DNA of 64,000 nt from a virus, in IMG/VR virus record IMGVR_UViG_3300048919_000048, positions 1 to 64,000 of that record; one strand, 5' to 3'. Position 1 is the first letter of the stretch, and each line of letters begins with the position of its first letter. Below the pieces are notes generated by a model, which did not search any database, had not been told where the DNA came from, and worked only from the letters and a program-made list of their open reading frames with translations. Below are positions 5,915 to 18,650 of this stretch, piece by piece. A program made the translations under genes and the position numbers.

Positions 5915-5935
5915 CCGCCTCCGGGCGGTTCTTTT
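5913..5935 (+). terminator. intrinsic terminator
   Basis: AACCGCC-TCC-GGGCGGTT hairpin followed by CTTTT, overlapping the stop of the preceding gene. It closes the last plus-strand gene before the gene-free region. Confidence 0.85.
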
Positions 5936-5954
5936 GTATCTTCCCTCCGTGATT

Positions 5955-6262
5955 TTGTTTCCCACACTGGTAGACCTGAAGAGGCACACTTGAGTCTAAC
6001 CCACCGCCTGAAGAGGCAGACCTGTGCATAACTTCGGCGTCAGCCAAAATGGTTTACAATCCCGAATGTCGCCCAAAATGGCTGACAAGATTTCCTGATT
6101 TCTCCCCACATTGTCAAGACCTTTCTGAAGAGGCGCACCACCCCGTCCGGGAGGCCCTCTCCCGCCGGGATAAATCCGTTATACCTGTTCCCACAGAGAC
6201 GTACCCGTCTGTATTCCCACATTGCCCAAATATCAAGGGAGCCGGAGAGGCTCACCTGTAAG
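5955..6262 (+). repeat. degenerate start-cassette repeats
   Basis: CTGAAGAGGC-(C)ACA or CAGACCTG-like units occur at about 5978, 6008, 6124 and (as GGAGAGGCTCACCTG) 6241. Three are preceded by CCCACA(T/C)TG. They resemble the working leader at 5492-5528 but are not followed by long open frames. They look like decayed or peptide-encoding gene starts. Confidence 0.5.
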
Positions 6263-6623
6263 GCGCTGTGCCCTCTTTTTATGTCAAAATACCCTCCCGC
6301 CAAAATTTTTAGGACGCGATCAGGGGTGGTCCTTCTTGCCCAGAAACCAGAAAAATATCCCAGCGTATGGATATAGCTGCCAGGCATGGCGATCAGGGGG
6401 TGGGGAGGGGCCTCGTTATTTTCCCCAAATATCCTTATGAATCAATGAGTTAGCCCTTCTCAGCCTTTGCCCAATCGAACCGGGGAGGTCCCCGCTTTAC
6501 GTGATCAACTCCACAAAATGTCTACCATCTTGCCCATCTTTACACTTGTCCTATTGACTCATCGGTCTGACTGTGCATCACGCCGCTGATACCCATTTAA
6601 CATAATACACCTTATACGCACCC

Positions 6624-6644
6624 GGGATAATGATAATCATTCCC
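6624..6644. promoter_or_regulatory. Fur-box-like palindrome
   Basis: GATAATGATAATCATTCCC (6626-6644) matches 17 of 19 positions of the classical Fur consensus. It sits in an imperfect palindrome bounded by GGG/CCC. Binding by host Fur is inference. Confidence 0.6.
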
Positions 6645-6708
6645 AACACGTGGAGAGGCCCGCCAGCACTGGCCCAGATGAGAATGGGTCTCACTCACCT
6701 TGTGGCAT

Positions 6709-6727
6709 GATAATGAGAATGATTCGC
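6709..6727. promoter_or_regulatory. Fur-box-like site
   Basis: GATAATGAGAATGATTCGC matches 15 of 19 Fur-consensus positions. A further TGAGAATGGGTCTCA palindrome lies just upstream at 6679-6693. Confidence 0.45.
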
Positions 6728-6749
6728 ACTCGCCCTTTGAGAATGGTTC

Positions 6750-6768
6750 GCGGATGAGAACCATTATC
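6750..6768. promoter_or_regulatory. Fur-box-like site
   Basis: GCGGATGAGAACCATTATC matches 14 of 19 Fur-consensus positions, with the right half-site intact. Confidence 0.4.
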
Positions 6769-6855
6769 GTTTACGCAAAAACAAAATAAAAATTATTTTT
6801 CTATTGACACGAAGAGCGAATTTTGCCAGGCAATTACGCCATATCTGTACACTTT

Positions 6856-6874
6856 GCGAACGATAATCATTACC
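6856..6874. promoter_or_regulatory. Fur-box-like site
   Basis: GCGAACGATAATCATTACC matches 15 of 19 Fur-consensus positions. Confidence 0.45.
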
Positions 6875-6923
6875 ATCTGAGGCCCTCCGGCCCGTACCGG
6901 GTCCGCCTCTTCAGACATCTTTA

Positions 6924-7372
6924 TGCAGATAAGATGCATTCTCATTCATAATCTTTTTGCAGATAAGACTTGACTTTGTGCGTTTACGCACTAGATTACA
7001 GCCCGGTTTACCGGGTGAAAGTAAGCGTAATAAACTCTTGACTTTCAAGGCTAAAGCCTCAACAAATGACCAATAGAAAACAGGTATAAGCGGTCATCCC
7101 TTGACCGTGGGAACGTGAGCAAAAACCGTTGCGAGTTAGCAACGGGGGTTGATCCGTTACCTGTTTTCTATTGGTCGCGCCTCCGGCGCGCCCTCCCTTG
7201 ATCCGTGGGAACGTAAAACCCGGCTTTTCTCAGAAGTCAATAAAAAGTTAAGTTATTGATAGTAAATGAGGATCATTCTCGCATTATGCAGATAAATGAA
7301 TAAATAGTGTCAAGTTATGTAAAGAAAAGGTGAGTTAGTCAATTGTGGCCTGATACACGTTTGCAGATAGAA
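6924..7372 (+). repeat. TGCAGATA direct repeats
   Basis: TGCAGATAAG occurs at about 6924 and 6960, and TGCAGATA again at about 7287 and 7364. Short spaced repeats in a gene-free region could be iteron-like protein sites. Confidence 0.4.
7068..7176. repeat. 19-bp perfect inverted repeat enclosing hairpins
   Basis: GACCAATAGAAAACAGGTA (7068-7086) is exactly complementary to TACCTGTTTTCTATTGGTC (7158-7176). The 71-nt interior holds CCGTTGC-GAGTTA-GCAACGG (about 7126-7145). A 'CCCTTGA(T)CCGTGGGAACGT' unit occurs inside (7098) and just outside (7195). As RNA it would be a long multibranch stem; as DNA it could be an origin cruciform. Confidence 0.65.
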
Positions 7373-7590
7373 GTCAATAGGGTCTAAAACGCTCTGTAAG
7401 GCTCTATGCGGGCCGCTATTCTCAACCCTGGCTAGTGGGTTAGCGCTTCAGTTATTCAATTATGCGCTTTAAAGTGAATAAAATTAGATGTTGATTTCCA
7501 CAATTGGAGGTGATAAGGGAAAGGATCTAAGAGTTGGGGGAGTCGGACCGATACCGGGCCGGGCCTGCTGGCTTGCCACGTTTGGGACAA

Positions 7591-7617
7591 AAGAAAAGCC
7601 CGCCGGGGTGGCGGGTC
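7591..7617 (-). terminator. intrinsic terminator (minus strand)
   Basis: On the minus strand CCCGCC-ACCCC-GGCGGG is followed by CTTTTCTTTT just after the stop at 7621. It ends the leftmost minus-strand unit. Confidence 0.85.
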
Positions 7618-7620
7618 TCT

Positions 7621-7869
7621 TCAGTTTAGGCAGGTAACCAGGGCGGGCAGTGATAGCGCCAGATCATAACGGTTTATTGATTTGCCACGATAGGCAAGGC
7701 GGGCCGTTGCCAGTGTAGCGCCAAAAACGTTTAAAAATGTTGTGACCATTTGATCGGGTCCAAGTACAGCGGACAAAATCCAATTGTTGACCGTATCGCC
7801 AGAAAAGGCAATGAGGACCGCTAAAGCGGCCCACAATGGTAGATTGATTTTAAAAAGGCGGTTCATCAT
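7621..7869 (-). CDS. small membrane protein
   Basis: An 82-residue protein with hydrophobic spans at ~11-23 (LPLWAALAVLIAFSG) and ~30-55, so probably two inner-membrane segments. It overlaps the upstream gene by 4 nt and shares its promoter. Function unknown. Confidence 0.75.
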   Translation of the reverse strand: MMNRLFKINLPLWAALAVLIAFSGDTVNNWILSAVLGPDQMVTTFLNVFGATLATARLAYRGKSINRYDLALSLPALVTCLN

Positions 7870-8240
7870 GCGCCGAAAGTGCGGGTGTGGTTGTTGTCTC
7901 GCTCAATCATCACCGCCAGGCGGATCAGTTGGTCAGTTGTATCCTTCAGACTGTCCGGCCAGGTTTTACCGTTCCAACAATCTAAGTTTGATTCGATGTA
8001 ACTTTCCAGCGCTTGATCCATGCTATCAAACATGTTTTCTTTCAGGCTTTCGGATGTCTCACACTGAAAAGCGTTTGCCACGCTGTTAATCAGCAAGCAA
8101 GCCAGGTGATCGGCGTTGCGCCAGTTTTTACGGATGTTTTCATCTTTCAGGTAGCCGATCAGGTTGACCTGTGCGCCAGTGGTGGAGGTTGCGATCACTT
8201 CGTAAGCTTTTTCGATTGCGTTGATAGCTGATTTGGACAT
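7866..8240 (-). CDS. helical soluble protein, unknown function
   Basis: A 124-residue protein. The ATG at 8240 has GGAGA upstream. The open frame continues upstream only through the promoter, so the longer version is rejected. It is mostly helical (SAINAIEKAYEVIATS, LIRLAVMIERDNNHTR). Driven by the promoter at 8284-8312. Function unknown. Confidence 0.75.
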   Translation of the reverse strand: MSKSAINAIEKAYEVIATSTTGAQVNLIGYLKDENIRKNWRNADHLACLLINSVANAFQCETSESLKENMFDSMDQALESYIESNLDCWNGKTWPDSLKDTTDQLIRLAVMIERDNNHTRTFGA

Positions 8241-8283
8241 TTTACGGTCTCCAGTGTTTTGGGTGTTTGTTGCTTGAGTGGGT

Positions 8284-8312
8284 ATTATGGGGCCTTTCGG
8301 CCCCCTTGTCAA
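8284..8312 (-). promoter_or_regulatory. promoter with palindromic spacer (class A)
   Basis: Minus-strand -35 TTGACA (8312-8307), 17-nt spacer and -10 CATAAT (8289-8284). The spacer carries GGGGGCC-GAAA-GGCCCC. It begins 4 nt after the stop of the upstream gene, so the palindrome may also end that transcript. Confidence 0.8.
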
Positions 8313-8315
8313 CGA

Positions 8316-8687
8316 TTAATTTAAATCCAGGTTCAGGGCCAGATCCACCAGGGCGGCGATCTGCTGTTCGTTAGCGATGCGGCCCACAACCCAACGAATA
8401 TAAATTTTAATCAATAATTCTTTGTTGCTGGCAAAACCCGGATGGTTCAAAAGGTCTTTTTTGCGGAATTTGTCCTCAGTAGCGAGAGTCATCACGCCGC
8501 CTTTGTACTCAATGGAGATCTGTAAACCATTGTCAAAGGTCGCCATAAAATAGTTTTCAAAGGTAACAGTTTCAACGTGTAACTTTGCGCCGCCTACGTG
8601 CTGTTGCATTTCGAACGAACGATCATAACCGAAATGATTTGCTTGCTCATCGCGGATGTAGTAGCGGTTGAAGTTGGTCAGGTTCAT
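8316..8687 (-). CDS. hypothetical protein
   Basis: A 123-residue monocistronic gene with GAGGAGA before its ATG. It combines beta-like segments (ETVTFENYFMATFDNGLQIS) with a C-terminal helix (NEQQIAALVDLALNLDLN). No family recognised. Confidence 0.75.
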   Translation of the reverse strand: MNLTNFNRYYIRDEQANHFGYDRSFEMQQHVGGAKLHVETVTFENYFMATFDNGLQISIEYKGGVMTLATEDKFRKKDLLNHPGFASNKELLIKIYIRWVVGRIANEQQIAALVDLALNLDLN

Positions 8688-8739
8688 TTTACTGTCTCCT
8701 CTTTGTGGGCCGTCGCGTCATTGCCGCCCTACGTGATAA

Positions 8740-8767
8740 ATAATACCACAATGGCGGATCGATGCAA
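8740..8767 (-). promoter_or_regulatory. sigma70 promoter
   Basis: Minus-strand -35 TTGCAT (8767-8762), 16-nt spacer and -10 TATTAT (8745-8740). It lacks the palindrome seen in neighbouring promoters. Confidence 0.6.
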
Positions 8768-9021
8768 TAGGGAGAATTGTAAAGTTTTGTCAACGTAAAC
8801 CCGGCTTTCAGCCCTTCAGGTCTAACATAAAATTTTCACGTTTGCAAGGGCAAAAAGTGCGAAAGTCCGATTTCGGGAGATCTATATTTTTATGATGTAG
8901 GATACCGGGTAAGGGGAAAACGGCTTAAAACGCGTTTTAGAGCGTTTGGCGGGCATGTACATTTATACAGTGGAGTGAAATAAATTTGACAACGGTTTGA
9001 AAGTATGTACTTGATTTGATT

Positions 9022-9040
9022 GGGAATGATAACCATTCTC
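9022..9040. promoter_or_regulatory. Fur-box-like palindrome
   Basis: GGGAATGATAACCATTCTC matches 15 of 19 positions of the Fur consensus. It lies just outside the left 30-bp repeat, as similar sites lie just outside the right copy. Confidence 0.5.
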
Positions 9041-9077
9041 ATTTGCCCAGCGCGGCCCAGGTCCGGTCCGCCTCCCT

Positions 9078-9107
9078 GAATAGCGGGCAGGTCCGGTGTT
9101 TGTCTCC
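9078..9107 (-). repeat. 30-bp inverted repeat, left copy
   Basis: On the minus strand this reads GGAGACAAACACC...CCGCTATTC and is identical over 30 nt to 19601-19630 on the plus strand. It lies downstream of an outward promoter (9137-9166). The pair brackets the array of small genes. Confidence 0.8.
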
Positions 9108-9136
9108 CCCTGCATCAGGTGCCATCGCATGACATA

Positions 9137-9166
9137 AGAATAACAAAAAAGGGGCGAACAAGTCAA
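9137..9166 (-). promoter_or_regulatory. terminator-promoter fusion (class C)
   Basis: Minus-strand TTGACT (9166-9161), 18-nt spacer and TATTCT (9142-9137). The -35 lies in the loop of a GGGG...CCCC-TTTTTT terminator hairpin serving the gene ending at 9191. The device recurs at 22765-22794. The transcript would run left through the 30-bp repeat. Confidence 0.65.
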
Positions 9167-9190
9167 CCCCTGGAAACACTGTTTATTTGA

Positions 9191-9532
9191 TCAGCACTTT
9201 GTTGCTGTTCGCTGGTGGTCTATGGCGATCCGTTTCTCTGCGATACCGTCCAGGGCTTCGGCTTCGTACCCATCGCAGCGAATGTAAAATAATGCGTTGT
9301 CAATCTCTTTTATCTTCTCCAGAAGATCGGCCCGGCGGGCTTCTAACAGGTCATCAAGGGATCGCAGGGCGGCGGGGATTGTCTCCCCGGTAGCCTCAAC
9401 ATAACCCCGGCCCGATCCTGGCAATGACCCGGCGGCGGTGGATGCCGTCCAGCGCCCACGGATTGACCAAAACACTTTAAAGCCGTTTCCGCTAAAAATG
9501 TGATTCTTTATGACGTGACAAAAGCGGATCAT
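9191..9532 (-). CDS. hypothetical protein
   Basis: A 113-residue protein, last gene of a three-gene unit. Residues ~45-85 (AALRSLDDLLEARRADLLEK) are helical and charged, possibly a short coiled coil. No SD motif was clear, but the start overlaps the previous stop. Function unknown. Confidence 0.7.
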   Translation of the reverse strand: MIRFCHVIKNHIFSGNGFKVFWSIRGRWTASTAAGSLPGSGRGYVEATGETIPAALRSLDDLLEARRADLLEKIKEIDNALFYIRCDGYEAEALDGIAEKRIAIDHQRTATKC

Positions 9533-9723
9533 ATCTCACCCCCGATAAAGTCGGATCGGTCGCTGTCTCTCATGCGGTCGTTTAATTCCTTCAGGGTGGC
9601 GATCCCGTTTTCGGCATCTTTCGCCAGGCATGACCCGGCATAGGTTGGATCACTCCCCAGGCGCAAGCGGTGAAGGTAACGCAAGGCGGCTAACGTTTGG
9701 CGGATCTCGGATTCTGTGATCAT
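9529..9723 (-). CDS. small helical protein
   Basis: A 64-residue protein (MITESEIRQTLAALRYLHRL). ATG 9723 is chosen because it overlaps the stop of the upstream gene (ATGA) and follows GAGGG. Function unknown. Confidence 0.65.
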   Translation of the reverse strand: MITESEIRQTLAALRYLHRLRLGSDPTYAGSCLAKDAENGIATLKELNDRMRDSDRSDFIGGEI

Positions 9724-9893
9724 GGTTCGGCCCTCGGATGGCTCATATTTACCCCGATGAATGGGAAGTGTGCCAGATCGCAAGGCTTCAGCGTTTCATG
9801 CCTTGCCCACATACCAGATCCACGGCGGAAAAGTACCCGGTTACGGCTTATGCGGTAAAAGTTCCCGTTTTCTAAATTCTGATACCAAATCAT
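9720..9893 (-). CDS. 57-residue basic protein
   Basis: Open frame with ATG 9893, GAGG ~10 nt upstream and a stop overlapping the next ATG. It starts MIWYQNLENGNFYRISRNRV and ends in a Pro-rich tail. The coupling and a promoter 50 nt upstream support it. Function unknown. Confidence 0.6.
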   Translation of the reverse strand: MIWYQNLENGNFYRISRNRVLFRRGSGMWARHETLKPCDLAHFPFIGVNMSHPRAEP

Positions 9894-9940
9894 TCTCGTT
9901 TACCTCATTTGCGGGGAGATGTTCCCGGCCTATGTGAGAC

Positions 9941-9969
9941 ATTATCGGCCCTATTGCGCCAGGTGTCAA
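9941..9969 (-). promoter_or_regulatory. sigma70 promoter sharing the upstream stop codon
   Basis: Minus-strand TTGACA (9969-9964), 17-nt spacer and GATAAT (9946-9941). The TGA stop of the upstream gene (9968-9966) lies inside the -35 box. Confidence 0.8.
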
Positions 9970-10427
9970 CCCCGGATCATGAAAAATTTTATTTTGTGGT
10001 GCATACCGTAAAGCCAATCGTGAAAAGCCGGGCCGCGCTCATTAACGGTGTTATACGGCCCCCTGAGCGCTTTTTGATCCTGGTCTGTGGGTAGCCATTC
10101 CCGGCCCTCAATAACCATCATAAAACGCTCCAGATAGTACACATACGCCCCGCACTCAGTAAAGATCACCTTGTTTGCTCGGATGTATGGGATCAGATAG
10201 GTATCCCCCAGATCCCGGATCTTATTGTGGGCACTTTGCCCGTTGATGAATCGGCGGATGTGATACGGGTCGTTTATTGCCCGGTGAATGTTCACCAGGT
10301 AGTCACCCCGTAAGGCGTTGATGTCTCTTTTACGCCATAACGCCACACTTGCAGCAATATTCCGGCGGGCTTCAGCCTGCGCCGCCGGGGTCAGTTCGTC
10401 GTAATACTTCAGATCTGTAAGGTTCAT
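9966..10427 (-). CDS. hypothetical protein
   Basis: A 153-residue protein, third gene of the unit starting at 10901. It begins MNLTDLKYYDELTPAAQAEA, and basic and aromatic residues are common throughout. Its stop codon forms part of the next promoter. No family recognised. Confidence 0.75.
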   Translation of the reverse strand: MNLTDLKYYDELTPAAQAEARRNIAASVALWRKRDINALRGDYLVNIHRAINDPYHIRRFINGQSAHNKIRDLGDTYLIPYIRANKVIFTECGAYVYYLERFMMVIEGREWLPTDQDQKALRGPYNTVNERGPAFHDWLYGMHHKIKFFMIRG

Positions 10428-10819
10428 TATTCCACCTCAATAAACCCGGCATCGTTGATAAACAGATTTTTTGACCCGAAAGTCTGCGCCACGTCGTGAA
10501 GTTTGTCACCGATTGACCCAAGCCCGCGATCCCAGAATCCCACGCCGTGACCTTGACGGCTAAACCATAGATCCCGGCCTGCTTGGGTGTGATCATAGTC
10601 AACCCCCGCCAGCATTGCCCCTTTGAGTAACAGCGGCGCAACGTCCATAAAGCGGGCACAATCCATGCGGGAGGCGTCCAGCGCTTCAGCGCTTAACTCA
10701 TACCCGGCCAGGTTTTCGATCTCTTCACCGTCGCTATCGGTGGCAGTCTCTGCAAATAACATCGCCTCAATGTAACCAGCGATAAAAGCGTTTAAGTGTA
10801 AAGCGTTGAAAGTAGTCAT
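10427..10819 (-). CDS. conserved phage protein of unknown function
   Basis: A 130-residue protein. The pattern AGVDYDHTQAGRDLWFSR followed by GHGVGFWDR resembles a small uncharacterised protein I recall from unrelated phages. The His/Asp-rich motif might be catalytic or metal-binding, but no function is known to me. Overlaps the next gene by 1 nt. Confidence 0.8.
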   Translation of the reverse strand: MTTFNALHLNAFIAGYIEAMLFAETATDSDGEEIENLAGYELSAEALDASRMDCARFMDVAPLLLKGAMLAGVDYDHTQAGRDLWFSRQGHGVGFWDRGLGSIGDKLHDVAQTFGSKNLFINDAGFIEVE

Positions 10820-10823
10820 TTTA

Positions 10824-10901
10824 TTAGTATCCCATTTTTACACAGATTGCGGTTGCGGATGCGATTGCTACGAAAACAGATACCAGGAAGATTACGCTCA
10901 T
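10824..10901 (-). CDS. 25-residue membrane peptide
   Basis: ATG 10901 follows AGAGAG. The product MSVIFLVSVFVAIASATAIC is a single hydrophobic span with a short polar end. It is the first gene after the promoter at 10950-10979. Confidence 0.6.
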   Translation of the reverse strand: MSVIFLVSVFVAIASATAICVKMGY

Positions 10902-10949
10902 TTTGTTTCTCTCTTTGTTTGTTGTGGTCTGTTGTGACCCGATGAAAAG

Positions 10950-10979
10950 AGTATAGCCCGTAACGCTTCCCGGCGTCAA
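10950..10979 (-). promoter_or_regulatory. sigma70 promoter
   Basis: Minus-strand TTGACG (10979-10974), 18-nt spacer and TATACT (10955-10950). It begins just after the stop of the gene at 10993. Confidence 0.8.
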
Positions 10980-10992
10980 CTTTATTTTTAAA

Positions 10993-11352
10993 TTATTTTT
11001 GTGCCACTTCCAGCGCGGCCCGGCGGGCTTTTGCGTCATCGCGTAGCGCTTTCATCTCTTTGATAGTGTCGGCAATGGTGCGGCCCACGGCGCAAGCTAA
11101 AAGCCACACGTGCGGCCCTTTCAGGTCGTGATCTTTGTAAAGCCCTTGCGATGTTACAGTAAGCCCCAAGCGGGAAGCGGCCTTGTGATCCGGCATTTCA
11201 AAAATTTGTTTTACTTCTTTGAAGGTCAAACGTTTGAAGTTAAGCCCACGGATCACGGCAGTAGCGGCGCGGACAATTCCATCCAGTTCGTTTTTGCTGC
11301 ACTCGAACAGGGTGATTTTGTACATTGGTTCCCACGGGGTGTATTTGCTCAT
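10993..11352 (-). CDS. hypothetical protein
   Basis: A 119-residue monocistronic gene. It has a Lys-rich central helical region (FKRLTFKEVKQIFEMPDHKA), a C-terminal helix rich in Arg/Ala and an AGAGAGATCGTAAA leader. A DNA-binding role is possible but unproven. Confidence 0.75.
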   Translation of the reverse strand: MSKYTPWEPMYKITLFECSKNELDGIVRAATAVIRGLNFKRLTFKEVKQIFEMPDHKAASRLGLTVTSQGLYKDHDLKGPHVWLLACAVGRTIADTIKEMKALRDDAKARRAALEVAQK

Positions 11353-11404
11353 TTTACGATCTCTCTTCTGTTTGTGGGCGGCGTTGTGTCGCCCTATGTG
11401 TTAC

Positions 11405-11433
11405 ATTATGGGGCCTAACGTCGGCCCCGTCAA
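11405..11433 (-). promoter_or_regulatory. class A promoter
   Basis: Minus-strand TTGACG (11433-11428), 17-nt spacer holding GGGGCC...GGCCCC, and CATAAT (11410-11405). The leader contains GGGCG...CGCCC just before the ribosome site. Confidence 0.85.
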
Positions 11434-11436
11434 TAA

Positions 11437-11691
11437 TTATTTTGCACCAACCATAAAACAGGCGGATTCGAAAGCATTACGGGCGCGGCGTTCACCGTAG
11501 CGGATTTTTCCGAAACCAGTTTTTGACGTGCGGCCCGTTTGGATAATTTCGTAGCACTCCCCGCCGTTGTGGATAAGGGACACGATAAACAGTTCCGACA
11601 TCTTGCGAGCGATCACGCCTTGCGCCTCCAGCGGTGGCAATTTGTTAGACGGGGCCTTGCGGGTGAAAAGTGATTTGATGAATTTTAACAT
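11437..11691 (-). CDS. small basic protein
   Basis: An 84-residue protein with a basic N-terminus (MLKFIKSLFTRKAPSNKL) and a basic region near FGKIRYGERRARNAF. It may be amphipathic or membrane-associated. Function unknown. Monocistronic. Confidence 0.7.
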   Translation of the reverse strand: MLKFIKSLFTRKAPSNKLPPLEAQGVIARKMSELFIVSLIHNGGECYEIIQTGRTSKTGFGKIRYGERRARNAFESACFMVGAK

Positions 11692-11725
11692 TTTGTGATT
11701 CTCTCTATTCGTTTGGTGTGGTGGT

Positions 11726-11755
11726 ATTATGGGGCCTAAGCGGCCCCGGCGTCAA
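11726..11755 (-). promoter_or_regulatory. class A promoter
   Basis: Minus-strand TTGACG (11755-11750), 18-nt spacer with GGGGCC-GCTTA-GGCCCC, and CATAAT (11731-11726). Confidence 0.85.
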
Positions 11756-11762
11756 CTACTTT

Positions 11763-11969
11763 TTATTTTATTTCTTCGTCGCCTTTCCACTGCGAATAGG
11801 TTTTAAAAGCTTCGTGTAAGTGTGGGGTAACTTCGGACAGCAGGACCGCGCCGCGATCACTTACAGCGGTCACCTGGTAGTGATCCGCACGGCGGGACGT
11901 GTCACCGCAAGCGGACAGGGTAACAGTAACATCAATCAGGCGGGACTTTTGCAGAATCATTGTAATCAT
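11763..11969 (-). CDS. small beta-rich protein
   Basis: A 68-residue protein; ATG 11969 follows GAGGAG. It is beta-like with a single Cys (LIDVTVTLSACGDTSRRADH) and ends acidic. Function unknown. Confidence 0.7.
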   Translation of the reverse strand: MITMILQKSRLIDVTVTLSACGDTSRRADHYQVTAVSDRGAVLLSEVTPHLHEAFKTYSQWKGDEEIK

Positions 11970-11999
11970 TTTACGATCTCCTCGTGTTGGTGTGGGGTC

Positions 12000-12028
12000 A
12001 TTATCGGCCCTTTCGGGCCGGGCGTCAA
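12000..12028 (-). promoter_or_regulatory. class A promoter
   Basis: Minus-strand TTGACG (12028-12023), 17-nt spacer with GGCCC-GAAA-GGGCC, and GATAAT (12005-12000). Confidence 0.85.
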
Positions 12029-12029
12029 G

Positions 12030-12185
12030 CTAATTTTTACCAAATCGTAAATGTTTTTTCGCCATAGCGCGGGCCGTTGCTTTACTATGCCCCGCCTCCT
12101 GATAATAGCGGGTTAAGCGGTCCAAAGTTTCGCGGCGGTCCGCCTTGCTCGGGTAAGCGGTGATTAAGAGTTTATGCGGGTTCAT
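12030..12185 (-). CDS. 51-residue basic protein
   Basis: ATG 12185 overlaps the stop of the gene upstream (ATGA). The product (MNPHKLLITAYPSKADRRET ... FGKN) is very basic and helical, which would suit nucleic-acid binding. Function unknown. Confidence 0.65.
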   Translation of the reverse strand: MNPHKLLITAYPSKADRRETLDRLTRYYQEAGHSKATARAMAKKHLRFGKN

Positions 12186-12478
12186 AAGGTGGCCCCCGCC
12201 GGGATCGTGTCGTTTACCAGGGTGGCGATCGCCTCTTTGATGTAGTCCGCCGGAAGTGGGTCGCTTTTGCTCTGAATATAGCGCCGCCCGTTGTAAATGA
12301 CATCGTAAGAGATCACAAAGTCCGCGCCGTGGCGGTCAACGTTGATTTGCAGGCGGTTCGGCTCTTTGTCATCCATATGACGACAAATGATCTGCACGGT
12401 GCCCGCTACGTTGGACATTGACGCCACGACGTGATCAGCCACGCCGGACAGGATGAAAAGGGTGTTTGCTTTTTGCAT
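12182..12478 (-). CDS. hypothetical protein
   Basis: A 98-residue protein; ATG 12478 lies about 30 nt after the promoter. Strands such as VADHVVASMSNVAGTVQIIC and a DRHGADFVISYDVIYNGRRY segment suggest a beta domain. Function unknown. Confidence 0.7.
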   Translation of the reverse strand: MQKANTLFILSGVADHVVASMSNVAGTVQIICRHMDDKEPNRLQINVDRHGADFVISYDVIYNGRRYIQSKSDPLPADYIKEAIATLVNDTIPAGATL

Positions 12479-12508
12479 TTTTGTAGCCTCGTTTGTTTGT
12501 GTTCGGTC

Positions 12509-12538
12509 ATTGTAAGCCGGGACGATGCCCGGCGTCAA
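12509..12538 (-). promoter_or_regulatory. class A promoter variant
   Basis: Minus-strand TTGACG (12538-12533), 18-nt spacer with CCGGG...CCCGG, and TACAAT (12514-12509). Confidence 0.8.
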
Positions 12539-12541
12539 CAA

Positions 12542-12721
12542 TTATTTTGAATTTTTCGCCGGGAGTGGTTCCCGGAAATAGCGGCGGATCTGCGCTGCTG
12601 TTAGGCGGGCGTCAGCCTGCAATGACTTCAGCGGATAGGGGCGGTTGGCTATAAAGGTATGTTGACCGCAGCCATTGCCGATCACGATGTCAACTAGGGC
12701 GAAAAGTAAAGATGATTTCAT
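12542..12721 (-). CDS. 59-residue protein, possible signal or membrane start
   Basis: ATG 12721 overlaps the upstream stop (ATGA). A short hydrophobic start (MKSSLLFALVDIVIG) precedes a basic C-terminal part. It could be anchored or exported, but the hydrophobic stretch is short. Confidence 0.6.
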   Translation of the reverse strand: MKSSLLFALVDIVIGNGCGQHTFIANRPYPLKSLQADARLTAAQIRRYFREPLPAKNSK

Positions 12722-12960
12722 TTTGCAGCCCCTTCTAAGGTGATTTCAACAATTTTAGCTGTTGCTTGCTCTTCGGTGATTTCGACGGCCCCGATCACGT
12801 CGTGATCTGTCAGGTCGGACGGCTTAAAGCCGGGACGGTAAAGCCAGCCCTTTCGCCCATCGGGGAGACTGTTTGACCAGCGGTAGATCTTCGGATATTC
12901 CCCGGAGGTTTCAGAATCTTCTAAACGGTAAAGGTTGTTTGTAACAAAATAACGTGTCAT
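12718..12960 (-). CDS. small protein, unknown function
   Basis: An 80-residue protein, first in a two-gene unit. Tyr/Trp-rich N-terminal half (YPKIYRWSNSLPDGRKGWLY) and an acidic helical C-terminus (VEITEEQATAKIVEITLEG). No family recognised. Confidence 0.7.
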   Translation of the reverse strand: MTRYFVTNNLYRLEDSETSGEYPKIYRWSNSLPDGRKGWLYRPGFKPSDLTDHDVIGAVEITEEQATAKIVEITLEGAAK

Positions 12961-12996
12961 GTTTTTGGCCTCGTTTGCCTGTTTGGTATGTCTGAC

Positions 12997-13025
12997 ATTA
13001 TCGGCCCTTTCGGGCCGGGTGTCAA
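12997..13025 (-). promoter_or_regulatory. class A promoter
   Basis: Minus-strand TTGACA (13025-13020), 17-nt spacer with GGCCC-GAAA-GGGCC, and GATAAT (13002-12997). Its core is nearly identical to the promoter at 12000-12028. Confidence 0.85.
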
Positions 13026-13028
13026 CGT

Positions 13029-13388
13029 TTATTTTTCATTTTTCACACGATAGAAAATGCGATAGGCGCGGCGCTTGCCGGGGCCGTATTGTGTGGTTAT
13101 GTATTCCAGTTCATACCCAAGCAAGCCTAAGCGGTGAAGGGCGGCACTTGCGCCGTCATTGTGTGACTGTTCGCGGCGATAAGGGGAGGTTAAGATCTCC
13201 AGCTCATTGGCGGCGGCGTACCAGTTTAAAACGGTTTGTTCGTCGCCTGAGACAAGCGCGGCGCGGTATTTGTTGATTGTGTTCCCGTTGATATCACGGG
13301 AAAAATCGAAAGTCTCCAGCGTAAGGAATAGATCACCATTCACCAGGAGATCAGGACGGGCGGCGATTGCTTCAGCGTATGATTTCAT
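13029..13388 (-). CDS. hypothetical protein
   Basis: A 119-residue protein with helix-rich N-terminus (SYAEAIAARPDLLVNGDLFL) and basic C-terminus (YGPGKRRAYRIFYRVKNEK). Monocistronic. Function unknown. Confidence 0.75.
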   Translation of the reverse strand: MKSYAEAIAARPDLLVNGDLFLTLETFDFSRDINGNTINKYRAALVSGDEQTVLNWYAAANELEILTSPYRREQSHNDGASAALHRLGLLGYELEYITTQYGPGKRRAYRIFYRVKNEK

Positions 13389-13431
13389 TTTATTGCCTCA
13401 TTCGGTGGCGTTTCGTTTGTCTATGCCGGAG

Positions 13432-13461
13432 ATTATAACCCCGGCATAATTCAAGCGTCAA
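13432..13461 (-). promoter_or_regulatory. promoter with palindrome around the -10 (class B)
   Basis: Minus-strand TTGACG (13461-13456), 18-nt spacer and TATAAT (13437-13432). ATGCCGG...CCGGCAT flanks the -10. Confidence 0.85.
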
Positions 13462-13464
13462 CAA

Positions 13465-13686
13465 TTATTTTTCAACTACCAACTGATAGCCCGCTTCAAT
13501 GTTGGAAAACACGATCCGCCCGTCCTGGCGTTCACTCATAAGCACACAAGGCGATAACATACGCTCTTCAGCTTTACAATCAGCATAAGCGGCGCGGATG
13601 TCGCCTGGCTTTTTGTCTTCAGTGGTGAAAGTGTCATTGATAAACACGTTGCCAGATACCAGGGTAATAATTGCGAAAGTGATCAT
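13465..13686 (-). CDS. small protein with a hydrophobic start
   Basis: A 73-residue protein beginning MITFAIITLVSGNVFINDTF, possibly an export signal or single span, followed by a polar domain with two Cys. It could be periplasmic. Function unknown. Confidence 0.65.
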   Translation of the reverse strand: MITFAIITLVSGNVFINDTFTTEDKKPGDIRAAYADCKAEERMLSPCVLMSERQDGRIVFSNIEAGYQLVVEK

Positions 13687-13730
13687 TTTGTGCCTCGTTT
13701 GGTGGTTTGCTTTCGTTTGTCTATGCCGTC

Positions 13731-13760
13731 ATTGTAAGGGACGGCATAACCACACGTCAA
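13731..13760 (-). promoter_or_regulatory. class B promoter sharing the upstream stop codon
   Basis: Minus-strand TTGACG (13760-13755), 18-nt spacer and TACAAT (13736-13731). ATGCCGTC...GACGGCAT flanks the -10. The TGA of the next gene upstream (13757-13759) lies within the -35. Confidence 0.85.
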
Positions 13761-13909
13761 GCGTTTTGTAGATAAAGTTTTGTGCCCCGTGGGAGGCGTG
13801 ATCCGTAACCTTCTCGATCACGTAGGCGCTTTCTTGCATCCTGTTCATCATAGCCGAAAACTTTAAGCGGGCCAGCCACACCGGGGATATTTACAAGATA
13901 ATGTTTCAT
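13757..13909 (-). CDS. 50-residue basic protein
   Basis: ATG 13909 is used because the open frame above it runs into the promoter. Contains LVNIPGVAGPLKVFGYDEQD followed by an Arg-rich segment. KVFGYDEQDA resembles GVFGYSDEDVK in the gene at 25000-25242, a possible shared motif. Confidence 0.65.
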   Translation of the reverse strand: MKHYLVNIPGVAGPLKVFGYDEQDARKRLRDREGYGSRLPRGTKLYLQNA

Positions 13910-13940
13910 TTGGTTGTCTCTTTTGTTTGGGTCTGTGGGT

Positions 13941-13969
13941 ATTATGGGGCCTAACGCGGCCCCGGTCAA
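13941..13969 (-). promoter_or_regulatory. class A promoter
   Basis: Minus-strand TTGACC (13969-13964), 17-nt spacer with GGGGCC-GCGTTA-GGCCCC, and CATAAT (13946-13941). Confidence 0.85.
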
Positions 13970-13972
13970 GAA

Positions 13973-14407
13973 TTATTTTTGATAATTTTTCATTCTTACG
14001 GCGTTGTGTTCGGCGGCTTTTACCCAAGCGCCGGGGATAGTGTCGGCGCGGCTTACGAATTCACCACAAAAGCGGGTAACATACAAGGCCCCGCAAGGAT
14101 CGCCGGAAAATTCACGGGTCACGGTGTAGCGCTTATCCTTTTTGATTGTGCGGATCACTTCCCCGAAAAGCTGATTGACAAGCGCGGTCCATTGTGTGCG
14201 GGCGGCGCCGATCTGGTCTTCAACAACCCATTCGATCCGGCCTACATCATCAAAATCGTGTGCCTTAACGTGAAACGCGCCGTGTTCCATGAAAAGCTGC
14301 ACCCGGATATTGTTGCCCGTGATCTTTGTGTCGATCTCTTGGACATAACCGCAAGCCAGCGCGTAAACGGATAAGCCTGCTTTGATACGGAAAATTGGGG
14401 AAGTCAT
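13973..14407 (-). CDS. hypothetical protein
   Basis: A 144-residue protein; its leader has a GCGACGC-type hairpin and GAGAGA ribosome site. Mixed alpha/beta with KRYTVTREFSGDPCGALYVT near residue 100. No family recognised. Confidence 0.75.
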   Translation of the reverse strand: MTSPIFRIKAGLSVYALACGYVQEIDTKITGNNIRVQLFMEHGAFHVKAHDFDDVGRIEWVVEDQIGAARTQWTALVNQLFGEVIRTIKKDKRYTVTREFSGDPCGALYVTRFCGEFVSRADTIPGAWVKAAEHNAVRMKNYQK

Positions 14408-14457
14408 AACGGTCTCTCTTCTGTTAGTGCGGCGCGGTGTGCGTCGGTATGTGGTAG

Positions 14458-14486
14458 ATTATGGGGTAACCGGGGCCATAGGTCAA
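14458..14486 (-). promoter_or_regulatory. class A-like promoter
   Basis: Minus-strand TTGACC (14486-14481), 17-nt spacer with GGCCCCGGTTACCCC, and CATAAT (14463-14458). Confidence 0.8.
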
Positions 14487-14510
14487 GCCCCGGAATGAAA
14501 ATATTTTAAA

Positions 14511-14738
14511 TTATTTCACGGTAACCCGGATCGCCTCAATCGTCGCCACGGTGGCCGGGTCAACAATCAGGGCCTGAGAGGTGGAGATCTTCACCCCTTC
14601 ACGCGCTGCAATGGCGGCTAATGACTTCGAGGTTATACGGTAGCCTTTGCCGTCCGTTACCAGGTAAAGGCAGGTAAAGCCCATCGGGCGACCTGCTAAC
14701 AGGCGGATAAATTCTGTCATGCTGTAAAGGTTTTGCAT
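14511..14738 (-). CDS. small protein, unknown function
   Basis: A 75-residue protein. ATG 14738 (GGGG ~8 nt upstream) is preferred to ATG 14750, which lacks a site. Contains YLVTDGKGYRITSKSLAAIA, then a beta-like C-terminus. Function unknown. Confidence 0.7.
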   Translation of the reverse strand: MQNLYSMTEFIRLLAGRPMGFTCLYLVTDGKGYRITSKSLAAIAAREGVKISTSQALIVDPATVATIEAIRVTVK

Positions 14739-14755
14739 TGTGTACCCCATAGATC

Positions 14756-14785
14756 AAAAATAAGGGGCCTATGCGGCCCCCTGTG
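14756..14785 (-). terminator. intrinsic terminator with the class A palindrome
   Basis: Minus-strand GGGGCC-GCATA-GGCCCC followed by TTATTTTT. It is the same palindrome used in class A promoters, but here with a U-tract instead of a -10. This suggests the promoter palindromes derive from terminators. Confidence 0.85.
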
Positions 14786-14825
14786 CGGTTTAAACGGTTT
14801 GGCCTGGTGTTTCCATGCCGGGCGC

Positions 14826-14960
14826 TTACTCCCAGTTATAGCGCGTTTTACGACGCTGTTGTTTGTTAGCTTTGTCACGTTGCAGGCGCTCGCCTGCTTC
14901 AGCGTATGACAGGCGGGCCGGGCGGGTCTGTTTGTCACGGTTGATATTAGTCTGAATCAT
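14826..14960 (-). CDS. 44-residue Arg/Lys-rich protein
   Basis: ATG 14960 overlaps the upstream stop. The product (MIQTNINRDKQTRPARLSYA ... YNWE) is highly basic and Gln-rich (NKQQRRKTR), so nucleic-acid binding is plausible. Function unknown. Confidence 0.6.
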   Translation of the reverse strand: MIQTNINRDKQTRPARLSYAEAGERLQRDKANKQQRRKTRYNWE

Positions 14961-15274
14961 TTGTAACCTCTTCTCTGTTTGCGTTTATCGTGCATATATT
15001 GGCGCTCATCGATCACGTCGTGGATCTCCTCAATATCCGGGGAGAATTTTTCGTAAGTGATCACGGCCCCCAACTGTTGGCGGTAGTTAATAGCCCCGAT
15101 GGCGTCAATCTCTTGCATCGGCCCATAATCGCGGGACGTTTCGATCTCCCCGTTGTACTCATATTCAAAGTAGCCAAACATTCTATTTTTACGCCTCCAG
15201 CGGCGTCGGTTGTAAAGTTTGGCGGCGTAGCCAACCGCCACCACTAAACCCAAGATGACCAGAATCGTGATCAT
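14957..15274 (-). CDS. membrane-anchored protein
   Basis: A 105-residue protein with an N-terminal span (ITILVILGLVVAVGYAAKL), then RRRWRRK (positive-inside) and an acidic cytoplasmic domain. Coupled to both neighbours. Function unknown. Confidence 0.75.
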   Translation of the reverse strand: MITILVILGLVVAVGYAAKLYNRRRWRRKNRMFGYFEYEYNGEIETSRDYGPMQEIDAIGAINYRQQLGAVITYEKFSPDIEEIHDVIDERQYMHDKRKQRRGYK

Positions 15275-15636
15275 TCAATAACCCCATACTTACGGCCCAA
15301 GATGACCAGCGAACCCGCCAAACGTGTCCAATATTGATCTAACTCCCATTCCTCCTGGCCTGCTGTAGTGTGGAAGTTAATGTAACCCCAGTCGGTTAAA
15401 AGATCAATGATCTCGTGATTCATGAAAGCATGATTGATTGATGTCGGCAGTCCCCGGAGATATTCAGTGATGGCGCGTTGCATACCCAGGCGGCTAACTT
15501 CGTGCCCATATTCAGACTGAAGGGTATCAAAGAAAAATTTAAGCTTTTCGGACTCGGTGCCTTCAAAGTCGATAACAGATAAAACATATTCACGAACATA
15601 ACGAGTAGCGGCGGTGTTTTTGGTGGTAGTAGTCAT
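15271..15636 (-). CDS. hypothetical helical protein
   Basis: A 121-residue protein, first of a three-gene unit with a GCGACGC/GCGCCGC leader hairpin. Contains YGHEVSRLGMQRAITEYLRG and later EIIDLLTDWGYINF. Soluble and helical. Function unknown. Confidence 0.75.
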   Translation of the reverse strand: MTTTTKNTAATRYVREYVLSVIDFEGTESEKLKFFFDTLQSEYGHEVSRLGMQRAITEYLRGLPTSINHAFMNHEIIDLLTDWGYINFHTTAGQEEWELDQYWTRLAGSLVILGRKYGVIE

Positions 15637-15687
15637 TTTACGGTCTCTCTTCTGTTAGTGCGGCGCGGTGTGCGTCGCTTCGGTGGT

Positions 15688-15717
15688 ATTATAGGCCGGG
15701 AGTTTTCCCGGCGTCAA
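15688..15717 (-). promoter_or_regulatory. class A promoter variant
   Basis: Minus-strand TTGACG (15717-15712), 18-nt spacer with CCGGG-AAAACT-CCCGG, and consensus -10 TATAAT (15693-15688). Confidence 0.85.
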
Positions 15718-15720
15718 CAA

Positions 15721-15930
15721 TTATTTTAAACTATTTGCGAGGCGGTCGATCCCAGCGCTTAGTTTAGTGTGCTGGGTAGCCTCCAGTAAAACGGATACCT
15801 GCATCAAAATATTTTCAGCCTGTTCTGGGTACAACTCAACAACCAGATTAAAGGCGGCGCGGGAACCGTCACGGATCGCCACCTGGTAAGCCTCATGTTT
15901 AACGTCGTTTACTTGCTGTTCGTTGATCAT
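15721..15930 (-). CDS. small helical protein
   Basis: A 69-residue protein that is helical throughout (NEQQVNDVKHEAYQVAIRD, AENILMQVSVLLEATQ). Monocistronic. It could form a small helical bundle; no function assigned. Confidence 0.7.
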   Translation of the reverse strand: MINEQQVNDVKHEAYQVAIRDGSRAAFNLVVELYPEQAENILMQVSVLLEATQHTKLSAGIDRLANSLK

Positions 15931-15962
15931 GGTGTGGATCTCTTTTCTGTTGGTGTGCGGGT

Positions 15963-15992
15963 ATTATGGGGCCTAACCCGGCCCCGTGTCAA
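15963..15992 (-). promoter_or_regulatory. class A promoter
   Basis: Minus-strand TTGACA (15992-15987), 18-nt spacer with GGGGCC-GGGTTA-GGCCC, and CATAAT (15968-15963). Confidence 0.85.
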
Positions 15993-15998
15993 CCACAA

Positions 15999-16379
15999 TT
16001 ATAAATCTTTTTTGCGGCTTACGTCGTACACGTTTTCAGTGTAGACTACCCCGAGATCCGCCGCCGCCTGGCAAGCATAAACCATTTTGCGCCACTTTGC
16101 CGGGGCATCCTTCACCGCCTCGATCATCGCACTCAGGGCGGTTTGTTCAAATCCGCGCTCATATCCATAAGCATAGCCAACATAGGCTAGGTCAATCCAG
16201 ATGTCCCCGCACTTATTCCCGTATTGGTTAGCGCCTAAACGGTCAGCCACTTCAACGGATACCAGCGCCGCCACGCTTGCGCTGTGGTAAGTATTCCCGG
16301 CACTACGTTGGAACCAACGTTTACCAGTTACGGAAATTTCTTTGATCTCGTTAGCGTTTACAGTGTTGATGATATTCAT
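15999..16379 (-). CDS. hypothetical protein
   Basis: A 126-residue protein with an aromatic, Gly-rich centre (LAYVGYAYGYERGFEQTALS) and helices on both sides. Not recognised. Monocistronic with its own promoter. Confidence 0.75.
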   Translation of the reverse strand: MNIINTVNANEIKEISVTGKRWFQRSAGNTYHSASVAALVSVEVADRLGANQYGNKCGDIWIDLAYVGYAYGYERGFEQTALSAMIEAVKDAPAKWRKMVYACQAAADLGVVYTENVYDVSRKKDL

Positions 16380-16431
16380 CGTTTACTATCCTTTCGGTTT
16401 GGTTGTTTGCTTTCGCTTGCCTATGCCGGGG

Positions 16432-16461
16432 ATTGTATACCCCGGCAGAAACCAGCGTCAA
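16432..16461 (-). promoter_or_regulatory. class B promoter sharing the upstream stop codon
   Basis: Minus-strand TTGACG (16461-16456), 18-nt spacer and TACAAT (16437-16432). TGCCGGGG...CCCCGGCA flanks the -10. The TGA of the gene at 16458 lies within the -35. Confidence 0.85.
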
Positions 16462-16688
16462 GCGGATTTAATGATATTATCAAAAAATTCCTGTGGGCGG
16501 GTCTCGCAGCCTTTTCCGGCCCAAGCGTTAACATGCCTTGAGGTGGTTGCGCTGTGCTTTGTGGCGGTTACCAGGTAGCCTTCACCGGGCAGGTATGCCG
16601 CTACCGGGGTGTTGTAAGAGAAGAAAACCTGTGAGCCGTCCGCCAGGGTAATCATGGTTTGGTTTGCGCCGATAGTAGTCAGATTCAT
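16458..16688 (-). CDS. conserved small phage protein (SYxTPVA type)
   Basis: A 76-residue protein. DGSQVFFSYNTPVAAYLPGE followed by a TTSRHVNAW motif resembles a family of uncharacterised phage proteins I have seen with SYxTPVA...TTSxHxxxW. Probably a small beta-rich domain. Function unknown. Confidence 0.75.
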   Translation of the reverse strand: MNLTTIGANQTMITLADGSQVFFSYNTPVAAYLPGEGYLVTATKHSATTSRHVNAWAGKGCETRPQEFFDNIIKSA

Positions 16689-16728
16689 TTTGTAAGCCTC
16701 GTTTGCTTGTCTGTTTGGTATGTCTGGT

Positions 16729-16757
16729 ATTATGGGGCCTAACCCGGCCCCGGTCAA
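16729..16757 (-). promoter_or_regulatory. class A promoter
   Basis: Minus-strand TTGACC (16757-16752), 17-nt spacer with GGGGCC-GGGTTA-GGCCCC, and CATAAT (16734-16729). Confidence 0.85.
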
Positions 16758-16769
16758 CAACTATTTTAA

Positions 16770-17015
16770 TTAATTTGCAAAATATGGAGCCATTGCTGAG
16801 GCGGTAGGGCTTACGGTTATCTGAGAATCAATCAGATATTCCACGTTGTCAATTCTTACAGTGTCGATTGAGTGATTACTGAAAGGTTTACTTTTTACCT
16901 TTCTAACTACCGTCCGGCGGCGGTTACCTTTCATCTCTTCGAGTTGAATCCAGGCATATCCTTTATCATTCATGAAAATTTCATTATGATGGGTAATTGT
17001 GGAAAGCTTTTTCAT
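16770..17015 (-). CDS. small basic protein
   Basis: An 81-residue protein. The N-terminal part (STITHHNEIFMNDKGYAWIQ) is followed by a basic stretch GNRRRTVVRKVKSKP, suggesting nucleic-acid contact. Monocistronic. Function unknown. Confidence 0.7.
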   Translation of the reverse strand: MKKLSTITHHNEIFMNDKGYAWIQLEEMKGNRRRTVVRKVKSKPFSNHSIDTVRIDNVEYLIDSQITVSPTASAMAPYFAN

Positions 17016-17067
17016 ACTGTTACCTTTTGGTTTTGGCGGCGGGTTATTCCGTCGCCCTATGTGATAC

Positions 17068-17096
17068 ATTATGGGGGTAACGCCGCCGGGCGTCAA
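17068..17096 (-). promoter_or_regulatory. class A-like promoter
   Basis: Minus-strand TTGACG (17096-17091), 17-nt spacer and CATAAT (17073-17068). The leader holds a GGGCGAC...GCCGCC hairpin before the ribosome site. Confidence 0.85.
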
Positions 17097-17114
17097 CCCC
17101 CTAAACGAAAATAA

Positions 17115-17465
17115 TTAATAAAAAGATCCGCCGGGGCTTACAGGATCGATCCGCCCGCCATTGTCCAGGATGCAACGGATCACGGCGTCGCCCATTGCTT
17201 TACATTCTGCCCAGGTTGGCGCTAGAATTTCGATGTAAGGCCAGCAGGCCGCGCCACCTGGAAAGTGGGACGTCTCCGCCTCTTTGCTTGTCTCCGCGCC
17301 TTCGGCGGCCCGGCTAACAAGATCATTAAGCTGGTCCCATTCCGGGTACGGGTGTTTTTCGTCGCTGTCATCGCTTAACCATTCCCCGGCCAGCGGGTGG
17401 CAATCGTAAGATATTGAGCAACGGAAAAGCGGCGTGATCTGTACAGTGGGGATCTGTTTGGTCAT
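17115..17465 (-). CDS. hypothetical protein
   Basis: A 116-residue protein; ATG 17465 follows GGAG. It has four Cys, a Ser/Glu-rich centre and a C-terminal part with AECKAMGDAVIRCILDNGGR. It follows the terminator at 17481-17502 without an obvious promoter of its own. Confidence 0.7.
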   Translation of the reverse strand: MTKQIPTVQITPLFRCSISYDCHPLAGEWLSDDSDEKHPYPEWDQLNDLVSRAAEGAETSKEAETSHFPGGAACWPYIEILAPTWAECKAMGDAVIRCILDNGGRIDPVSPGGSFY

Positions 17466-17480
17466 GGTACTGACTCCACA

Positions 17481-17502
17481 CGAAAGGCCCCCGCCGGGGG
17501 CC
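17481..17502 (-). terminator. intrinsic terminator
   Basis: Minus-strand GGCCCCC-GGC-GGGGGCC hairpin followed by TTTCG, in the 45-nt gap after the gene at 17512. The U-tract is short, so some readthrough to the next gene is likely. Confidence 0.75.
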
Positions 17503-17511
17503 TGCAATTGG

Positions 17512-17733
17512 TTAGCGGTGAGTGTTACGGGAAAGTGTGCCGCCGTTATGCTTTGCGCCAACGTGCCAGCCGTCCGCCTTTTTGGTTGGCGTTGTGGGGG
17601 TCACGCCAGCGGCGCGTAAACGGTTAGCAACGGCGCGGGCATCGTCACGGGTACGATAAGCGGGCAGGGTGGCAACCGCCGCCAGATTAACAGAGGAAAC
17701 GCCACGTGATTTTTTATAGATTACTTTTGCCAT
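17512..17733 (-). CDS. small basic protein
   Basis: A 73-residue protein (MAKVIYKKSRGVSSVNLAAV) with Arg-rich helices (RDDARAVANRLRAAG) and TPTTPTKK linker. Possibly nucleic-acid binding. Monocistronic. Confidence 0.7.
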   Translation of the reverse strand: MAKVIYKKSRGVSSVNLAAVATLPAYRTRDDARAVANRLRAAGVTPTTPTKKADGWHVGAKHNGGTLSRNTHR

Positions 17734-17782
17734 TTTCTTTACTCTCTGATTTTGCCGGGCACCATTTGCCGGGCTTGTTTGT

Positions 17783-17811
17783 AGTATGGGGCCAGGTGGC
17801 CCCGGTGTCAA
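17783..17811 (-). promoter_or_regulatory. class A promoter
   Basis: Minus-strand TTGACA (17811-17806), 17-nt spacer with GGGGCC-ACCT-GGCCCC, and CATACT (17788-17783). Confidence 0.85.
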
Positions 17812-17814
17812 CAA

Positions 17815-18252
17815 TTATTTTACGATAGTTACAGATTTATATTCCTGCTCTGCACTCATGCCGCCGCTACTGTTGGCGCGGAGGATCTCCAGGTGGGCAG
17901 GCATCCAGCCAGTAGAGCGACCCACAATAAAGCGGCGCTTTTCGCCGTACATGGTGATCACTTCTACCCGGCGACCCTCCAGGCCTTTCAATTGCTTAGT
18001 GAGACCAGCAAGACAGCGCTTGCCCGTGCGGGCATGATAGGCACAACCAGCGGAGATCATATCCTGGCAGGCTTTATAATGCTTTTTTGTGCCCTTGCGA
18101 TATGGGAGATCCTCAACTGTTGCACCTTCAGATTCTAACCATTGTTTAACCTTACGGGCGTTTCTGTCCAGGACTTCGAACCCGTAGCAGGTAAAGCCGT
18201 TGCCACACTTCAGGACATACAGTTTTTGCTCTTTGTTGATTGAATGTAACAT
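17815..18252 (-). CDS. conserved phage protein of unknown function
   Basis: A 145-residue protein. The pattern YVLKCGNGFTCYGFEVLDR, then GLEGRRVEV, RRFIVGRSTGWMPAHLEI and SSGG resembles a widespread uncharacterised phage protein. The C-terminal part looks like a small beta barrel. Monocistronic with a leader hairpin. Confidence 0.8.
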   Translation of the reverse strand: MLHSINKEQKLYVLKCGNGFTCYGFEVLDRNARKVKQWLESEGATVEDLPYRKGTKKHYKACQDMISAGCAYHARTGKRCLAGLTKQLKGLEGRRVEVITMYGEKRRFIVGRSTGWMPAHLEILRANSSGGMSAEQEYKSVTIVK

Positions 18253-18305
18253 GATAACGATCTCTCTTTTGTTTATGCGGCGCGGTGTGCGTCGCTATGT
18301 GGTGA

Positions 18306-18334: not shown

Positions 18335-18337
18335 GCA

Positions 18338-18583: not shown

Positions 18584-18613
18584 TTTACTGACTCCGTTTG
18601 TTGGTGTGGTTGT

Positions 18614-18643: not shown

Positions 18644-18650
18644 CAACATT

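Follow-up and report, generated by a model that had tools for sequence, protein, structure and literature searches.

Fur is the master iron regulator of the hosts considered here, and its operator in E. coli, the Fur box (fepA-fes, fepB-entC, cirA, fhuF, fecI and others), is a 19-bp palindrome. In the Fur titration assay, Fur boxes carried on a multicopy plasmid derepress Fur-controlled genes. The sole phage Fur box met in the literature searched is located upstream of sitABCD on lambda-like temperate phages, where a single box serves a cargo transporter operon (PMC6969025, in the portion available). That literature, which included few subscription papers and leaves absence unproven, gave no account of virulent phages carrying Fur operators; the available text of the CB7 paper (PMC7344957) has no whole-word Fur, ferric or iron, and the BASEL paper (PMC8594841) has no Fur or iron. 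For phage T5, the first-step DNA amounts to approximately 8% of the genome (PMC7472727, available portion), while the stop signal is described as containing repeats, inverted repeats, palindromes and DnaA boxes, with the stop mechanism and second-step transfer poorly understood (PMC13250531, available portion).

The sequence analysed here (the window, 64,000 nucleotides) corresponds to positions 1-64,000 of a virus record of 151,943 bp. It matches Certrevirus phages infecting Cronobacter, Pectobacterium, Enterobacter, Klebsiella and Pantoea, and the phage is a Certrevirus (Vequintavirinae). The window carries 19-bp palindromes with the Fur consensus, which are strongly supported as candidate operators for the ferric uptake regulator (Fur) of the host. 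They share the base preferences of enterobacterial Fur operators, are conserved, and form clusters in gene-free stretches within and near the early-gene region. They resemble the E. coli Fur box in palindrome length and base preferences, but lie on virulent genomes, arrayed in gene-free DNA and off predicted promoter cores. Fur titration assay plasmids also hold multicopy Fur operators off the host chromosome, although these are laboratory constructs and titration by a phage would be by analogy. The sitABCD box is likewise phage-borne, whereas the present sites form arrays with no attached iron gene found. The T5 injection stop region (PMC13250531, available portion) likewise holds an array of the same motif, with a spacing of approximately 35 bp and in a fixed terminal repeat, whereas Certrevirus genomes are reported to be circularly permuted (PMC7344957, available text).

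Sites were scanned on either strand with the 19-bp Fur consensus GATAATGATAATCATTATC and in a second register, the palindromic pattern AATGAKAAYNRTTMTCATT, which has 18 scored positions and in which a site starts 3 nt later than the consensus start (6626 becomes 6629). They were also scored with a matrix made from 13 sites of Fur-controlled E. coli K-12 regions (the E. coli matrix). The features of the window are as follows, with pattern matches given out of 18.

5915-7620, no strand assigned: gene-free region of 1.7 kb holding cluster 1, between converging plus-strand and minus-strand gene blocks
6629-6647, no strand assigned: site A, 17/19 to the consensus, 15/18 to the pattern, E. coli matrix 15.0, kept in 13 Certreviruses
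6677-6695, no strand assigned: site B, weak, 15/18, conserved, E. coli matrix 10.2
6712-6730, no strand assigned: site C, 16/18, E. coli matrix 19.5
6753-6771, no strand assigned: site E, 16/18, E. coli matrix 18.3
6859-6877, no strand assigned: site F, 15/18, E. coli matrix 15.5, in the window phage only and absent in relatives
7265-7283, no strand assigned: site H, 14/18 with 15/18 counterparts in relatives, E. coli matrix 13.2
9025-9043, no strand assigned: strong single site, 18/18 (17/18 without mismatch in degenerate form), E. coli matrix 25.9, aligned in relatives
19635-19653, no strand assigned: array site 1, 17/18, E. coli matrix 21.1
19664-19682, no strand assigned: array site 2, 16/18, E. 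coli matrix 19.0, 29 bp from site 1
19693-19711, no strand assigned: array site 3, 18/18, E. coli matrix 24.8, 29 bp from site 2
19731-19749, no strand assigned: array site 4, 16/18, E. coli matrix 21.5, 38 bp from site 3

The longest open reading frame in 5915-7620 encodes 115 amino acids on the minus strand and no convincing gene was identified; phage CR9 carries no annotation beneath its match to this region, which agrees with its preliminary description as gene-free. The consensus scan of the region gave matches at 6626 (17 of 19), 6709 (15), 6750 (14), 6856 (15) and 7262 (14), so that the four matches of 14-17 first reported were recovered, at 17, 15, 14 and 15, together with a fifth. Clustering beyond chance, which had also been claimed, was borne out: none of 1,800 simulated sequences of the region's length (six Markov models of orders 1-3, fitted to the gene-free region or to the window, with 300 sequences from each) had three or more hits of at least 14 or any hit reaching 17, while the real region has five of at least 14. 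Two of the degenerate copies initially noted also held up, that at 6679-6693 as the 19-mer at 6677 (15/18 to the palindromic pattern and aligned in relatives) and that near 7267 through counterparts which recur in relatives; the copy near 6929 is present but weak (14/18). The site at 6626-6644, put forward as the best, is the best of the region by consensus (17/19) but not by the E. coli matrix.

The window holds two further site groups besides this cluster, and the strongest sites fall outside the interval initially reported. The consensus scan also picked up the 9025 site (at 9022) and the array (as a cluster at 19632-19752). In the AATGAKAAYNRTTMTCATT register, ten sites of at least 15/18 were found in the window, in gene-free DNA, all within 4.0-23.5 kb, and a forward scan of 23.5-64 kb gave none at this threshold. 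Beyond the window, one more match (3 mismatches) was found at position 74,320 of the record, and the E. coli matrix gave a score of 15.6 to one further site in the window, at 40842.

The region 5915-7620 was matched by 27 phage records, 18 of them at a coverage of at least 80%; 15 of the 27 were retrieved, the rest being second-accession duplicates or sister isolates, and the partial record SS-2025 (L004) was scanned locally. The set of 15 records compared comprised this phage, 12 other Certreviruses, Salmonella phage SSBI34 and Escherichia phage W70; PBES 02 and SSBI34 were joined across the record start for alignment. With up to 3 mismatches, 14 of the 15 records had between 7 and 15 sites, against 0 or 1 for the reversed pattern. 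The exception was W70, a member of the same subfamily, with 1 match against 1 in the reversed control, and the sites are therefore dispensable in that phage. Clusters were at corresponding places in all 13 Certreviruses examined, and cluster 1, the 9025 site and the array all align across relatives, except that site B scores under 15 in PcCB7V and phiTE, the CB7 cluster has diverged, phiTE has no site of at least 15 at the 9025 position and the POP15 array has three sites. Columns within sites A, B, C and E were more conserved than those between sites (0.966 compared to 0.875), a value equalled by 41 of 5,000 random placements. In addition to site F, lineage-specific sites include extra copies in the Pectobacterium phages. 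Some matches in relatives overlap start codons inside operons; these may be chance matches which dilute the counts.

The identity of the motif was assessed with matrices in both directions. A symmetric phage matrix (70 distinct sites from 14 phages, W70 left out) was applied to eight E. coli K-12 segments, totalling 97,364 positions and selected for known Fur targets, and judged against a list of K-12 Fur target regions which we take to be correct. The top-scoring site was in a Fur-controlled intergenic region in all eight segments, and all 11 Fur-controlled regions scored at least 12.6 while the best other site scored 9.8, in segments picked to contain targets. As the phage-trained matrix separates all 11 regions, the phage sites are, by sequence, Fur operators. 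In the reverse direction, the E. coli matrix placed seven phage sites at the top of the 64-kb window, where the best score from 30 resampled 64-kb windows was 16.0 and the median of left-out E. coli sites was 19.1, the latter inflated. The two matrices had a correlation of 0.953, above all 10,000 permutations; this value and the left-out scores are inflated because the E. coli registers were chosen with the phage matrix. An independent check on identity is provided by the ChIP-exo consensus TGAnAATnATTcTCA from nine E. coli strains (PMC10164565, available portion), which is the same motif as the phage sites. The Fur-box identity first proposed is thus strongly supported at the sequence level.

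The motif was also found in other phage lineages. With up to 3 mismatches, matches compared to reversed-pattern matches were 8/0 in rV5, 6/0 in PVP-SE1, 11/0 in KB57, 10/0 in Klebsiella phage P8734, 16/3 in phi92, 17/6 in a T5-length record (121,750 bp), 12/3 in another T5-like record, 31/18 in a 345,809-bp jumbo record and 13/2 in a 149,506-bp record, while three T4-like phages were at control level (RB14 4/5, the others 5/3 and 3/4). With up to 2 mismatches, each of 11 records chosen for having the motif carried 4 to 18 sites against 0 or 1 in the control, including 18/0 in the record of Salmonella phage SP01 and 8/0 in the jumbo record. Among 38 T5-like loci, 274 sites of at least 16/18 were found (control 0), and 37 of the loci had at least three such sites 3.9-7.3 kb upstream of A1, the remaining one (L350) ending short of that stretch; the loci are not independent, since in some cases one genome contributes both copies of its terminal repeat. 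The array of the T5-length record, in the terminal repeat, lies at 9,552-9,715 and has four sites (16, 15, 18 and 17 of 18). Of the 12 sites of at least 15 in the jumbo record, some of which overlap, 10 fall within 224,601-227,178, where no open reading frame of 80 amino acids is present. In phi92 a block of small genes has an array ahead of it, at 136,991-137,102, and two sites after it, and two more sites lie inside the 343-bp terminal repeat. The 29-bp spacing recurs in the window, KB57, P8734, rV5 and phi92. An IMG/VR scan for site pairs returned at least 120 stretches, against 1 for the reversed pair; the stretches carry no classification, and ordinary Fur boxes in host DNA may account for some of them. 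The IMG/VR scans for single sites and for 29-bp pairs (35 stretches) served only to reach other phages. A genome_contigs scan with one phage-type 18-mer returned at least 119 stretches, with no Enterobacterales among the matches listed, and was set aside.

Predicted promoters near the sites, identified by consensus match only, were the following.

19384-19412, plus strand: rightward sigma70 core TTGACG-17-CATAAT, 223 bp before the array
8284-19040, minus strand: 21 predicted early-type sigma70 cores, none overlapping a Fur-type site

The minus-strand cores are in line with the early promoter published for Certrevirus (PMC7344957, available text). None of 11 sites overlapped a predicted core promoter, the nearest core being 223 bp away, in a search which weaker promoters would escape; by eye, a weak promoter (TTGCAA-17-TATATT) is present approximately 60 bp before the array.

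A Fur-family protein was detected in none of 17 phage records (this record and all 16 others), while the control was detected in 13 of 14 genomes, so host Fur is the simplest ligand and is likely to be the protein that would bind the sites. Evenly spaced palindrome arrays are typical of phage regulators, and only part of the early proteins was examined; that the sites are operators of a phage-encoded regulator sharing the Fur motif by coincidence is nevertheless very unlikely, given the lack of a Fur-family protein in these records, the same motif in T5-like, rV5-like, phi92-like and jumbo phages, and a matrix which discriminates real E. coli Fur regions. Scarcely credible is an origin by chance or base composition, or as RNA hairpins. 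The motif is AT-rich and palindromic, but reversed-pattern controls were near zero, simulated sequences failed to match the region and the three T4-like genomes stayed at control level; positions 6 and 14 were complementary in only 25 of the 70 sites (34.6 expected), and as this is no more than chance the palindromes are not kept as RNA stems. During infection, iron-loaded host Fur would bind the phage sites, and with approximately ten sites per genome and many replicated genomes we propose that the sites could act as a sink, drawing Fe-Fur off host promoters. With Fe-Fur removed, host iron uptake would be derepressed, which is the effect that multicopy Fur boxes have in the titration assay. 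Class I ribonucleotide reductase needs iron, and a possible gain would be iron for enzymes such as a phage enzyme of this class. CB7 encodes class I NrdA/NrdB (PMC7344957, available text), and NrdA/NrdB of this type is a possible beneficiary of the freed iron.

Such host Fur operators acting as an Fe-Fur sink are our preferred explanation, to which we give an even chance of being correct; an additional local role in the early region is possible. Either of the two functions first put forward, a Fur decoy or coupling of phage genes to iron status, may apply. The gene-free location, the several strong sites and the lack of overlap with predicted sigma70 cores lean towards a decoy, while conserved positions within Certrevirus and the 29-bp spacing across genera lean towards a local role and are features that a sink would not need. 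Two further points count against a sink: W70 does without the sites, and a single entering genome could titrate little, so that replication is required. A local job, in which Fe-Fur at the arrays would repress or block early or noncoding phage transcripts and tie early expression to host iron, is a tentative alternative. It draws on the held positions of cluster 1, the 9025 site and the array in Certreviruses, the recurrence of the spacing in rV5, KB57, P8734 and phi92, the greater conservation within sites and the weak promoter before the array, but the sites overlap no predicted sigma70 core and several sites per array exceed the usual need of a bacterial Fur-controlled promoter. We place the sink slightly ahead of the local role, which is nearly as likely. 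A contribution of array-bound Fur to holding or timing DNA transfer, as could occur where T5 injection stops, is very unlikely: 8% of T5 is approximately 9.7 kb, which coincides with the array of the T5-length record, but this match is positional only, and because Certrevirus genomes are reported to be circularly permuted, the point at which their arrays enter would not be fixed. More doubtful than a local role, though less so than DNA entry as such, is the broader reading that convergent Fur-operator arrays in Vequintavirinae and phi92 relatives, T5-like and jumbo phages form an iron-responsive, Fur-titrating device, timing T5-like DNA entry or early expression at the injection stop region.

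The distribution of the motif suggests that several lethal phages may exploit host iron control. If Fur binds, virulent infection would be linked to the iron status of the host, infection would be predicted to derepress iron uptake and a specific host protein would become testable at the T5 injection stop region. E. coli K-12, in which genes can be removed, and the phages already available would allow these questions to be addressed.

A number of other elements were observed around the sites. A block, TTTAACATAATAC...CGCAC (6598-6623), adjoins the Fur-type sites and is common to Certreviruses and rV5 (L288, near rV5 position 105,144), where it is on the opposite side of the sites. The gene-free region contains a perfect 19-nt inverted repeat (7068-7086 and 7158-7176, 71-nt loop), and by eye 6950-7215 has recurrent CTTGAC words followed by small hairpins which differ in sequence among relatives. 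Perfect 30-nt inverted copies at 9078-9107 and 19601-19630 each lie near a Fur-type site, and 19777-19960, directly after the array, holds a unit around AGAATACG...GATCGAGA in three diverged copies. Tandem Repeats Finder detected no array at the sites. Rfam gave no family at gathering strength near them (best suhB, 20.6 bits with 41 needed, and HYMAI, 20.4 with 80 needed) and none for a noncoding element at 19417-19542, which is possibly a small RNA. This element is conserved beyond the subfamily, this part of the query also matching phi92 (82%) and other phages, and 279 records match some part of 19380-20000. RNA folds gave z scores of -1.05 for 19418-19640 and -2.85 for 19580-19980. No relative of the protein encoded at 7866-8312 was found in IMG/VR. 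The 9025 site stands upstream of the gene at 8316-8687 (minus strand), the product of which is related to T4-like gp30.7 and is matched by 975 phage records.
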